The notes under the pieces were generated by a model. It did no database searches, was not told the DNA's origin, and saw only the letters and a list, made by a program, of their open reading frames with translations. A stretch of 64,000 nt of DNA, taken from assembly GCA_020002185.1 (NCBI GenBank), contig CM034531.1, forward strand, positions 89,899,121 to 89,963,120. The letters run 5' to 3'. Made by a program: the position numbers and the translations under genes. Each line of letters begins with the position of its first letter. Positions within the stretch are counted from its first letter, which is position 1. This DNA is from Paraescarpia echinospica. Its lineage: Eukaryota > Annelida > Polychaeta > Sabellida > Siboglinidae. This document shows, piece after piece, positions 3,105 to 63,920 of the stretch.

Positions 3105-3260
3105 ATATTGACACAGTCATGTTTGCACCACTGCGACAAAGACCACGCGTATTGTGTGTTGACATGTGACAACTAACTGAAAATACACAATGACATAAAC
3201 GTTTGCGAGCACACTTGCTTCGCGTACAAAGAATATTGCGTTGCGCACTGTTTTCATTAA
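3105..3260 (+). pseudogene. Degenerate last exon of the cysteine-rich peptide family
   Basis: A CTCTTTCAG acceptor ends at 3104. The following sequence aligns with the last exons at 12202 and 27908: eight cysteine codons spaced C-3-C-6-C-3-C-12-C-3-C-6-C-3-C, ending with the same CVxHCFH-stop type terminus (TAA at 3258-3260). Two lesions are visible. There is an in-frame TAA at 3174-3176 in the linker between the two halves. There is also a loss of 8 bases between the acceptor and the first Cys codon, which changes the splice phase from 1 to 0. I find no first or signal exon upstream. This is a decayed paralogue of a secreted, possibly venom or mucus, peptide gene. Confidence 0.85.
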
Positions 3261-3645
3261 ACATTCAATCGTGTACATTTTCCGACAAGAAGTCTTCCTT
3301 ATTATGGAAACTCGCAAAACTGATTACACGGATATTTGTAATTGGCGAAGAGATAGGTTGTACGTGTATATCAGCAGTGGTTAGTGACGATTTTACTGAA
3401 TATAATACATAGCCACACATGTACTTATGGTGGTTTGGCGACCGCACGTCCAGCACGTGCCATGAGCGAGCCGTGATCGTACGATGGGCTTTGCTATGTC
3501 ATTGTTTAGCTCGGAAAATACGTTGCACATCTAAAATACTTGCCAGTGAAAACGTGTAGAGCGTTTTTTATTGTACTCAACTCTTCTGTGATGAAATGCG
3601 AACAATACAACTACCAAAGTGATGTTACCTGCTGCAGAATTATGG
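3261..3645. other. 3' flank of the degenerate exon
   Basis: Positions 3275-3325 (CCGACAAGAAGTCTTCC and the following purine-rich stretch) align with 12380-12425 and 28085-28130, so the similarity continues past the stop codon for at least 50 bases. No other gene is seen. Confidence 0.6.
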
Positions 3646-3649
3646 TGTC

Positions 3650-4790
3650 AGCCTCCTGTTGAGTAGTCCTCATGATGACAGATCAGCATTCCAGTGTCAG
3701 TGTCACCAGCAGGACCGGGCAACTCAATCAGGGCCCGTGATGATAAAAGTGCGTGCGATGGATTGTCCTTGTGATCCTTCAGATCCCGGATGATCATATT
3801 AATGATCTTCACCTTGTTGAACGTCACAGAGAAGAGAAGTGACTGTGCAGGCAGACGAGATGTGTGTTTTAGTCTGAAGACTGGACTCGCTCCTTTCTCC
3901 CGTCTCCCGCCCGTGACCTCCTTGGTGCTGCCACTGATGTATCTGAACCGAGTATGTTGCAACACATATTATTTATATGCCAACCAATAGGATATTGGCT
4001 GATCCTATCCACAGCAGCGATCCATATATTACCTGTCAGAGATGATATAGACATATGATGCCTCCTGATAATGTTTGACGTGTTTGCGAAATGCGTCGAT
4101 GTAGGCCTGCACTGTGACATTGCCGCCAGGAAACTCCACAGCCCAGAGCACCGCGCAGCCACCGAGAAACATACCACTCTTCTCCATCCCTCTGCTCGAC
4201 CTTTCCACTGCCAGTTCGTTCTTGAGGACGCTCTTGGTTGTAGTGCGCATCTGCCTTTAGTCGTCGAACAAAGATGTGGCAACAGGTGCGAGCTCCGTGG
4301 CCAACATGTCACAGACTGTCGGTTCTCCATTCCGCTGACTGGCTTGAAGTCCAAGGGCCCTGGCATAAAATATCTCGGTGCCCACGATCTTATGTCTATT
4401 GACGTTGATAGCCTTCCTGTTGGCGACCCAAGTGACGATAGTGACCTTGACTGGTGCATGAAAGGCCTCAGACCTCCCCGCGTCGAACTTCTCCTGCTGC
4501 GTCTTGCCGCGTTCAACTGTCTGGTCAACATTGATTGCCTCGTTCATCATCACTTCTCCAGTTTCAATGCTGATTAGGCCCTTGGAATGCTCCTCTAGAT
4601 TGACCGGGTCGATGTACACAGCCAGCTTGTCACGGAGAGCTCGGCGGTCCATCCCATCTGTCTTAATACGTTGCTTGCCCTCCTCCTTATGCGTCATCTG
4701 CACGTTTACTGCATCAGGGTTTCGCATCTCCTCGAGGCCGCTGGTGAGTGAGAGGCAGTCGCAGTAGCTGTAGGCCCAGGTCTCGATACT
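3650..4790 (-). pseudogene. Broken copy of a multicopy PIN/FEN-like hypothetical protein
   Basis: The minus strand reads through about 4727-4257 with a segment containing YIDPVNLEEHSKGLI and MNEAINVDQ. It meets a TAA at about 4254-4256 and continues in the same frame to 4029 with GGCAVLWAVEFPG and VYIISDR. It then resumes at about 3965-3648. These blocks resemble the first acidic motif region of PIN/FEN-type nuclease folds. I recall this protein type as a highly amplified, mostly uncharacterised family in invertebrate genomes. The in-frame stop and the break near 3966-4029 argue for a dead copy. It belongs to the same broad family as the pieces at 9643-10900 and 18738-19940 but looks like another subfamily. 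Whether it is a transposon protein or a retro-amplified host gene cannot be decided here. Confidence 0.55.
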
Positions 4791-4799
4791 CTCCGGGTC

Positions 4800-5690
4800 T
4801 GTTGTGTGGACCGATTCATAAATTGACCGTTTTCTCCATGGTTAGGATCTTACTTATCAATTTTGATATTCGTGAACATATCATTATTTCAAAATCGACT
4901 CATATTTATTTATATATTTGCGTTAGATGTTGTTTTCGCAGTTTGTTTACTTGCAGTTTGTTTGTTTATATAATTGAAATGATGTATATATTGTATATGT
5001 CTCTCGTTGTTGGGATACATTAAAACAAACGAGATTTCTGTAACCCTTAAAAAATGTATCTGGTTACATGACCTTGGATACGACCTTTGACCTTATTATT
5101 GACCTCACGTTACAAAAATAACCTCAAAAATGGATTGCTCATAACATAAATTTAGCTGGAAAAAATGGTGTCACTCGTGATCCTAGGCCCATTGGTTAAA
5201 ATGTTATTTTTATATGGGCACCGGCGGCCATCATGGAAGCCATCTTGGACCGCCGAAGGTTAGGGTGGGAATGCAATTTCAAATAAATAAGTGTTCACTT
5301 TTTTTATGAAAGGTATCTATATTTTCAGATGATTTTAAAGTGATATGGAGTTGACTCCAGATTTTGGGTGCAGCTACAGGAAAAGCACGTTTGCTGATAT
5401 TAAGCTTGGTTTTCGGAACAAAAAATCATTGTGAAACAGATGATCTGAGATTCCTGGAGATATCGGAAAAACGAAGGAGACTAAACAAATAGGATGGGTG
5501 TTGCGTAGAAAGGGTACGATATGTGATAGTGGCTAATTTGAATTGTATTCGATATGTAACTGGAAGCCAACGCAACGTCTAAGTAGAGGCAGAGATGGTG
5601 AGAAACGAGGTGCTCTTAGTACAACACGTGCTAAACAATTATGTACACGTTGGAGTTTATCTAAGTTATCTCGTTGCCCCCTAACGTTAA
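4800..5690. other. No intact gene; repeat-like remnants
   Basis: Positions 5215-5275 hold a GGCGGCCATC...GCCATCTTGG...CCGCC stretch, a composition typical of MITE ends. Positions about 5340-5670 (GCACGTTTGCTGATATTAAGC, GGAAGCCAACGCAACGTCTAAG, CGTTGGAGTTTATCTAAG) resemble the antisense of the region behind the reverse transcriptase of widespread invertebrate LINEs. No frame is intact. Confidence 0.35.
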
Positions 5691-62150: not shown

Positions 62151-62232
62151 CACACACACACACACACACACACACACACACACACACACACACACACACA
62201 CACACACACACACACACACACACACACACACA
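62151..62232. repeat. (CA)n microsatellite
   Basis: About 80 bases of CA, then (TA)n. Confidence 0.98.
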
Positions 62233-62250
62233 TATATATATATTGAGAAG

Positions 62251-62302
62251 TCAAAATGTTATATATATTTATACATATATATATATATATATAACATTTT
62301 GA
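62251..62302. repeat. AT-rich hairpin, 16-base arms
   Basis: TCAAAATGTTATATAT and its complement ATATATAACATTTTGA flank an ATTTATAC(AT)n centre. This gives a 52-base near-palindrome after the CA/TA tract. Confidence 0.85.
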
Positions 62303-62789
62303 TTGCAAACGGTGTTGAATGGGCCTTTTGACACTGAAATCAAATGCCTATATAGTCCAGCTATAACCTTTTAGTTCTTTAGTACTTGTAATATAAGGAA
62401 TATCGTATTTTGCGATGCATATCTGTGCATAGAGAACCTCATTGAATATGCTAACACGAGCAACATATGTTCATTTATATTATGGCCTACTCGCCTGAAG
62501 AGGCATTGGGACTCAATACAAATATGCAATAGAAACAACGTTAACTGTTACTAAAAAAAATAAGATCCCGTTATGGACCTGACGGGGTGCGACGTACACA
62601 TTGCAATTAATATAAAATGTCAATTAAAATTGATATGCTAACATGATGCGTTAGAGTATATGGGAAATAGTCAAGCCATCAATTGTTTGACGTGATTTCA
62701 TCGGTTGTTCGTATGTGTGGTCCTCGACATGGTGTATTTGTACAAAAACTCAAGTATGTTATTGAATTAACGTCGCCGATGTGCCGTCA
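62303..62789. other. No gene recognised
   Basis: No exon or repeat signature noticed. Confidence 0.4.
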
Positions 62790-63920
62790 GGTATGTCTCA
62801 TTAGTCAAAATAAGTGGATTAGGCCAACCAGGTGATATTTTGTATTTCCTTATCATTTAGACACGGTAACAAGAAAACACAGGATTAATGATGTCGTATA
62901 ATGTATAATTGTTAGGGCGATTGCATGTTCTGAGTATCATAAATAACGGTCAAATAGGTTGACATAGTCGACTGCCTGGATATTCTGGCGTGTCATTTTT
63001 GTAATTCGTCAACGAGTGTTTGTTCGTCTGTCTTCACTGAACCAGTTGTATTAGAAAATTACGAATATTCACAAAAGGGGACAACGCTAGGGATAACTTG
63101 TTACTTTATAATGCGCAATAATAGTTAAAAATATAATGCATAGATTATATTTCTCAACCGAAGTCGTCTAAGCTAACTTGCTACTTTTTATATTCTATAG
63201 AAATTAATGCCATTGATCGAATGGTAATACTGCGGTAACATTAAGCCTATACAACTCCCAAATTCGAAAACAAAGCCATTCGCTGAAGCTTTTCATGGTA
63301 TGAAGCTACTTCATGCAATACATATAGCAGTACCGTAACTGTCTATTGAGTGTTTAACATTTAACATTTAATCGCCTTCCAATCGCATATCAGTTTTATT
63401 GATGAAACATTATTATGTAATGAAACAAATGCTTCATTAGTATTGGCAATATATTTAATAACAGAACGCCTACTTTTGTTAACAGCAGTCGAAAGAATAT
63501 TAACTTTGCTCGAGTAACGTTCAAACGTGTTCAGGAATATTGATATCACAACAAAATGTTGATTTGATTTTCAATAGTTAACATTTCTCGACAAGAAAAA
63601 CCATTTGCTATACAAACTTTTGACATGTTTCTCTTTGTTTCGGTGACATAGAGAGCAGAAAACACGACTTCCAACATGAAAATCTTTATGGTATGTGATT
63701 TTATTCGTGTTCATCTTCTGTGGGTTTATCTACAGAAATATATTCTGCGCCATAAATATGTATAATGTAGTTTTACATGCGGGTCAGCGATTTCAACGAC
63801 ACAATTAGCGATAACATTGTAAGGTAAGTTAAGCATCCTGCTAAAAATTAGTTGCTAATTTTATGGGAACATTGCTAAATGACACACAAATCGAAGTGCT
63901 ATTTTCAGATATTACAATTT
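62790..63920. repeat. Duplicated segment, better kept copy (partner of 54480-54970)
   Basis: Collinear with 54480-54970 in its first 160 bases and its last 280 bases, with about 680 bases inserted at 62965-63630 that have no match in the other copy. Confidence 0.7.
63676..63690 (+). CDS. First coding exon of a further peptide-family gene, cut by the window edge
   Basis: The acceptor GTGACATAG ends at 63651, a 24-base UTR stretch follows, then ATG plus four codons (MKIFM) and a GTATGT donor in phase 0. This matches the 15-base first exons at 10927, 23832 and 39664 in length, phase and composition (Met, a basic or polar pair, then hydrophobics). No signal exon is seen before 64000. Introns 1 in the other genes are 409-840 bases, so exon 2 should lie just beyond the edge. 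Confidence 0.55.

Follow-up and report, generated by a model that had tools for sequence, protein, structure and literature searches.

Clustered three-exon genes for predicted secreted eight-cysteine peptides in a tubeworm genome

What gene family underlies the short cysteine-rich coding pieces scattered through this stretch of Paraescarpia echinospica DNA (the window, 64 kb), and what might its products do? The first-pass annotation had described such pieces as members of a single family dispersed across the window; this is confirmed, and the cluster is larger than first described. The exact frame C-x3-C-x6-C-x3-C...C-x3-C-x6-C-x3-C is present in four intact last exons of the 64-kb window; two divergent copies beyond the window, G and H, have it too. 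Related exons extend over approximately 186 kb of the window's own chromosome (within C1 89.79-89.99 Mb). An exact double module occurred in 0 of 30 random sequences of the window's length drawn from a first-order Markov model. Exact single modules number ten in the window (eight from the four intact last exons, two from a pseudo-exon) versus a mean of 0.07 in 30 such sequences. Among the looser matches listed, most are CVCV-type microsatellites.

The window contains three complete three-exon genes, A, B and C (Table 1). By their sequence, exon 1 is predicted to provide the translation start, exon 2 the signal peptide and exon 3 the mature peptide. Genes A (10927-12365) and B (23832-24877) are complete, as had been proposed. 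The "two-exon partial gene" at 39664-38981 does have both exons, but is not partial: a third exon on the same strand (37780-37614) follows in phase and completes gene C.

Table 1. Positions of family members and fragments in the window.
Feature	Position	Strand	Remarks
Gene A, exon 1	10927..10941	+	5 codons, predicted signal-peptide start, donor GTAAGT
Gene A, exon 2	11782..11842	+	remaining predicted signal peptide and a short linker; donor in phase 1
Gene A, exon 3	12202..12365	+	double module 3-6-3-12-3-6-3, then stop
Gene B, exon 1	23832..23846	+	
Gene B, exon 2	24256..24334	+	predicted signal peptide
Gene B, exon 3	24726..24877	+	spacing 3-6-3-8-3-6-3
Gene C, exon 1	39650..39664	-	
Gene C, exon 2	38981..39041	-	predicted signal peptide
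Gene C, exon 3	37614..37780	-	spacing 3-6-3-11-3-6-3; overlooked in the first-pass annotation
Copy D: open last exon, exons 1-2 absent	27908..28071	+	matches 0.7 kb around the last exon of copy F (F outside the window) at 99% identity
Pseudo-exon, both modules	3114..3257	+	one in-frame TAA between the modules
Antisense fragment of second module	18665..18745	-	E 6e-8
Possible first exon, weak	54715..54731	+	no good donor (by eye)
Possible first exon	63676..63690	+	donor GTATGT
Exact double module	12225-12356	+	pattern scan of the window
Exact double module	24749-24868	+	pattern scan of the window
Exact double module	27931-28062	+	pattern scan of the window
Exact double module	37632-37760	-	pattern scan of the window

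The orphan open last exon at 27908 is present as described, and the pseudo-exon (given as 3105) is real; a scan for exon 2 found no second exon for it. The antisense fragment, previously placed at 18671, is likewise genuine: about 71 bp match copy E with 98.6% identity, and both flanks consist of sequence repeated elsewhere. The two lone first exons, both candidates, weakly resemble each other (69% over 123 bp); the one at 54715 is a weak candidate. No exon 2 or 3 was found for either within the window. Where the window ends, a 5000-N gap begins; the candidate at 63676 lies about 310 bp ahead of it, and the rest of its gene may be hidden there.

The cluster includes recent duplicates. Upstream of the start codon, gene A and its 99% identical copy A' have just some 30 bp in common; A', E and F have a common upstream region of approximately 1.0-1.2 kb that gene A lacks. 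The segment directly upstream of gene A (10403..10900) is repeated at 18738-19235, as judged from its two ends. Genes A and E are 95% identical in the last exon versus 86% in the remaining gene, and A and F 87% versus only 84%. Exon 3 appears to be under some coding constraint. Its dS and dN values are 0.10 and 0.016 for A/E, 0.24 and 0.096 for A/F, 0.24 and 0.105 for A/D, and 0.12 and 0.079 for E/F, all from few changes and without a statistical test; positive selection on the A family is not indicated by these four comparisons. The only invariant positions in an alignment of eight sequences are the eight cysteines. The sequence shows a cluster of three-exon genes, recent duplicates included, for small peptides with a signal-like leader, constant in their eight cysteines alone. 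The net charge of the cysteine core is -4 in A, -3 in B, -1 in C and -4 in D.

All named relatives come from the vestimentiferan tubeworm Lamellibrachia satsuma, a siboglinid annelid, and are annotated as hypothetical proteins (LSAT2_004994, LSAT2_018069 and LSAT2_004991). The last exon of gene A is 73% identical to LSAT2_018069 and 66% to LSAT2_004994, and a four-row profile matches this family over the whole mature peptide with E-values of 5e-16 and 1e-15. The L. satsuma precursors start with MK(S/N)I(M/L), which is similar to exon 1 of gene A, followed by exon-2-like and then exon-3-like sequence, and their length of 79 aa is consistent with the three-exon joins, the proteins themselves being predictions. 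The gene model is in agreement with these predicted proteins. The earlier description of clustered, partly duplicated and degraded genes for eight-cysteine peptides with a signal-peptide exon is supported. LSAT2_004994 and LSAT2_018069 have a similar signal peptide and the same eight-cysteine frame; LSAT2_004991 has the similar signal peptide but loses the frame after the sixth cysteine, perhaps through a gene-model error. LSAT2_004991 and LSAT2_004994 have close locus tags and lie on equally long contigs, presumably one and the same. In searches that included the divergent B, C, G or H, inspection by eye recognised no match nearer to them than to the A type. When B and C were searched against the genome, the only matches were a C6 copy of B and two to C (E 1.5 and 4.2).

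Pfam and PDB sequence searches yielded nothing above chance. Among four window exons compared with Pfam, one had a single match, Defensin_2 (E 1.3). CHCH/COX6B proteins gave no above-chance match in the PDB sequence profiles, the best being COX6B1 with E 0.78 and 0.54. Among the matches listed, titles and abstract beginnings of open-licence PMC papers contained no report of the family.

A second secreted family has the eight-cysteine frame with a ninth cysteine in the loop (3-6-3-5-6-3-6-3); its arrays lie on two chromosomes other than that of the window. Its eight frame cysteines have the same relative positions as in the window family (0, 4, 11, 15, 28, 32, 39, 43), and it likewise has a hydrophobic leader and tandem arrays; it differs in having apparently two exons (by eye) instead of three and a core charge of -2 to +7 versus -1 to -4. 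Window members lack the loop cysteine. The genome search for this family gave 80 places at E<=10, 29 of them on C7 at 36.8-37.4 Mb and 15 on C9 in two groups (41.9-42.1 and 50.4-50.8 Mb); 31 places reached E<=0.01, 6 of them A-type exons. Among 26 candidate loci inspected, 21 hold the frame (two of these with one or two extra cysteines) and five do not. The family is also found in L. satsuma (LSAT2_024903, LSAT2_021402 and LSAT2_021947), in a search that scored the 8000 candidates sharing most words. An alignment of the eight- and nine-cysteine families with hhalign gave a probability of 94% and an E-value of 1e-7, yet shuffles of the non-cysteine columns reached this score in 18 of 60 trials; because cysteine-preserving shuffles score as high so often, we do not claim common descent. 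An initial impression of strong diversifying selection in the nine-cysteine family came from a count that omitted the shared cysteine codons (e.g. dS 0.07, dN 0.44). With cysteines kept, in the 45 pairs shown of the 78 among 13 loci, dN exceeds dS in 19 and is below it in 22, and the lowest p is 0.03, uncorrected. For some pairs, such as L059-L061 (0.159 versus 0.108), the core has diverged more than the 5' flank; in the more diverged pairs it has diverged less than the 3' flank. Diversifying selection in this family is no more than a hint.

The reading that we consider most likely, with a probability of about 0.4, is that the window genes encode extracellular helical-hairpin peptides stabilised by a disulfide ladder and acting in host defence or symbiont management. 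On a helical wheel, the four cysteines of a 3-6-3 module fall at 0, 40, 20 and 60 degrees. Each module would form one alpha helix with its cysteines on one face, and the two helices would fold back on each other with four rungs, Cys1-8, 2-7, 3-6 and 4-5. Such a ladder would leave the outward residues free to vary. With less confidence than for the fold, we propose that the peptides act as extracellular effectors on body-surface microbes or on the symbiont, and that a varied set of them is produced beside the larger nine-cysteine family of the same frame. Their anionic character counts against an effector role, as classical antimicrobial peptides are cationic. The absent signal of positive selection in the A family, the mixed dN and dS balance in the nine-cysteine family and the unproven kinship of the two families also count against this reading. 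Equal 3-6-3 spacing in both halves, taken for an internal duplication in the first-pass annotation, would equally be required by an antiparallel disulfide ladder.

Neither a nemertean origin nor the venom or mucus interpretation resting on it finds support. Every named homologue comes from a tubeworm, and the cores are anionic. In a modified form, these would be defensive or deterrent peptides in the mucus, acting on predators or grazers in the manner of nemertean B-type neurotoxins (beta-nemertides), which we regard as improbable. Those toxins are likewise small and secreted, with eight cysteines, four presumed disulfides and a similar size. B-IV (PDB 1VIB) is described as a hairpin of two helices (PMC6410017), a fold solved there and only presumed here, and in the Parborlasia beta-type sequences loop 4 is given as 10 or 16 residues (PMC11126048) versus 7-12 in the window family. 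Trp-30 of B-IV is reported as crucial, with other aromatics as possible substitutes (PMC6410017); exon 3 of gene A has no Trp. The host is an annelid tubeworm, of a different phylum, and no sequence similarity between the two families was detected, PDB matches being at chance level. 1VIB was absent among the matches at E<=10 with profiles A1 and A2, in a chain set that may not include 1VIB, and short cysteine-rich peptides can escape such searches. Nemertean B-type neurotoxins are basic, unlike the window peptides.

A structural or binding role, as tube, cuticle or extracellular-matrix peptides or as metal or sulfide binders, is unlikely but the least strained of the alternatives. In its favour are the abundant extracellular protein secreted by the tubeworm collar and opisthosoma, and sulfide binding by free cysteines of tubeworm haemoglobins (PMC8476170), which could be set beside the odd cysteine of the nine-cysteine family. 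Against such a role, the cysteine count of the window family is even and its exons have no above-chance Pfam match. The strict 3-6-3 frame is, to our knowledge, not a metallothionein pattern. A role in reproduction or signalling, as gamete, pheromone or hormone-like peptides whose variability is maintained by sexual or species recognition, would account for clustered genes with a signal exon, variation between the cysteines and named relatives limited to one related genus, and molluscs have helical-hairpin pheromones; nothing in the analysis points toward this role, and we consider it doubtful. That the copies are mostly dead or redundant tandem duplicates without present function seems very unlikely: the pseudo-exon, the orphan exon, the antisense fragment and the upstream region missing from gene A agree with it, and dN below dS in all four exon 3 comparisons and the open homologues in another genus argue against it.

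Vestimentiferans might have evolved a large private repertoire of disulfide-laddered hairpins, comprising the window family and the nine-cysteine arrays. It would regulate how the intracellular sulfur-oxidising symbiont grows, divides or is digested, as an animal counterpart of plant nodule peptides; we offer this as a long shot. Legume nodule-specific and aphid bacteriocyte-specific cysteine-rich peptides, whose cysteine patterns differ from that of the window family, are also described as lineage-specific sets in hosts of bacterial symbionts. In a study on Riftia, host antimicrobial peptides were speculated to restrain symbiont division, and the peptide search retained only matches more than 75% identical to known ones (PMC6918071), so a private family like the one in the window would not be expected to surface there. 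With the gene coordinates given here, the Riftia proposal can be put to the test in RNA and peptide data from trophosome. Exons as short as those of this family can evade routine annotation.

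The exact double module (C-x3-C-x6-C-x3-C twice) is encoded by four intact last exons of the window; 30 Markov sequences contained none. Each of genes A, B and C is split into three exons. The first is a start exon of five codons in phase 0, the second codes for the signal peptide and ends in phase 1, and all eight cysteines lie in the last. The first-pass annotation had described gene C as a two-exon partial gene, overlooking its last exon. The fourth exon, D, is an orphan. Loop 4, between the two modules, differs in length: A and D have 12 residues, B has 8, C has 11, as does H, a divergent copy outside the window, and G, another such copy, has 7. 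The Lamellibrachia satsuma proteins P0003 and P0004 (each 79 aa) show all three parts of the gene at the predicted lengths and in the predicted order; they lend support to the three-exon model, while being predictions themselves. All named relatives belong to this vestimentiferan (two of three matches in one search, three of six in another); the other matches are ENA or JGI entries. Origin of the DNA in a siboglinid or a close relative is well supported, origin in a nemertean is unsupported. We conclude that this is a real, apparently undescribed gene family of a known kind, the lineage-specific disulfide-rich secreted peptides.

The cluster extends beyond the window. The published Paraescarpia echinospica assembly is described as 1.09 Gb in 14 pseudochromosomes with an N50 of 67.5 Mb (PMC8476170); the genome searched here, in which the window occupies C1:89899121-89963120, comprised 1.08 Gb in 3111 contigs. 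The last exon of gene A has at least 15 matches at E < 1e-5 (C1, 11; C6, 3; C861, 1), all counts being lower bounds. Those on C1 span ~129 kb, or ~186 kb with H included. The C1 copies outside the window include A', a 99% copy of A; E and F; G, with a signal-exon candidate; a minus-strand copy that by eye seems frame-shifted; and more exons or fragments. A stretch of C6 repeats part of the cluster and keeps its order (E, F, pseudo-exon, B); the C6 copy of B is 98.4% identical to that of the window, and a copy of the pseudo-exon there lacks the stop. This stretch might be a second haplotype that was placed wrongly, or else a segmental duplication.

Coordinates of features in the window and of related loci in the genome
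Feature	Sequence	Coordinates	Strand
Pseudo-exon, both modules with one stop between	window	3114-3257	+
Open frames within repeated sequence	window	10497-10909, 18832-19934	
Repeat of the sequence that lies upstream of gene A	window	near 18738-19235	
99% identical to end of repeat directly adjoining gene A	window	19085-19235	
Orphan last exon D	window	27908	+
Gene C, first two exons	window	39664-38981	
LINE-type retrotransposon-like decayed frames (reverse transcriptase, endonuclease-like; by eye)	window	26413-27456, 30577-31836, 33026-34102, 41193-43639	-
Same	window	16290-17524, 50505-52575	+
Repeated units, overlapping open frames, GHICPCFHPKVYALV-like	window	58240-58826	
Gene A last-exon matches, E < 1e-5	C1	89798466-89927185	
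Divergent copy H	C1	89984067	
Second copy of part of cluster	C6	65605784-65633240	
Nine-cysteine search, 31 places (29 within this 0.6 Mb)	C7	36819650-37420382	
Same, 16 places (9 in one group, 6 in another, one apart)	C9	41926045-42105753, 50461278-50787515	
Same, 9 places (7 gene A-like last exons)	C1		
Same, 5 places (3 gene A-like last exons)	C6		

dN is below dS in pairs A/E, A/F, A/D and E/F; pairs with at most one difference (A/A', both C1/C6 pairs, F/D) are uninformative. Upstream, A', E and F have ~1.0-1.2 kb in common at 78-86% identity. Gene A shares only ~30 bp before the start codon with A', with repeated sequence upstream of these, which suggests that gene A may keep an intact coding part but have lost its ancestral promoter. 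D and the last-exon region of F are 99% identical over 0.7 kb. By eye, the frames preceding D resemble reverse transcriptase.

The 3-6-3 spacing confines the four cysteines of a module to a 60-degree arc on one helix face, as judged by helical-wheel geometry, and reads the same in either direction. Because the cysteines share one face and the pattern is symmetric, two such helices, if antiparallel, would pair cysteines 1-8, 2-7, 3-6 and 4-5; we infer this disulfide-paired arrangement from geometry. The nemertean toxin B-IV is reported to carry eight cysteines and to fold as a hairpin of two helices (PMC6410017). The B-type likeness proposed in the first-pass annotation is fair as a shape hypothesis, with the hairpin proposed for the window peptides, but lacks support as membership: the toxins come from another phylum, and no sequence match was found. 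The label given to the family was wrong, and a disulfide-laddered hairpin may well have been reached by convergence. Given the signal-like leader, the clustering, the variability between cysteines and the fact that named examples so far come solely from a gutless lineage that depends on symbionts, the simplest reading is that the peptides are candidate defence or symbiont-management effectors, although the anionic cores count against a firm claim. Such effectors have been suggested in Riftia, but the search made there looked for close similarity to known ones (PMC6918071).

Among the weak matches of gene A elsewhere (E 0.2-9) are open frames that encode nine cysteines, spaced 3-6-3-5-6-3-6-3, and a hydrophobic leader. 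One member, searched against the genome, matched 80 places (E ≤ 10). The frame is held in 21 of 26 loci inspected (two have one or two extra cysteines, and one pair is identical) and in 13 of 13 longer stretches, seven of which repeat earlier loci; among 19 aligned members only the nine cysteines are invariant. The eight shared cysteines occupy identical relative positions in both families; weighed against cysteine-preserving shuffles, this is not enough to establish common descent. In the mature part of the C7 and C9 arrays, dN exceeds dS in some pairs, not significantly after correction. The three named relatives of the nine-cysteine family are all from L. satsuma (three of seven matches).
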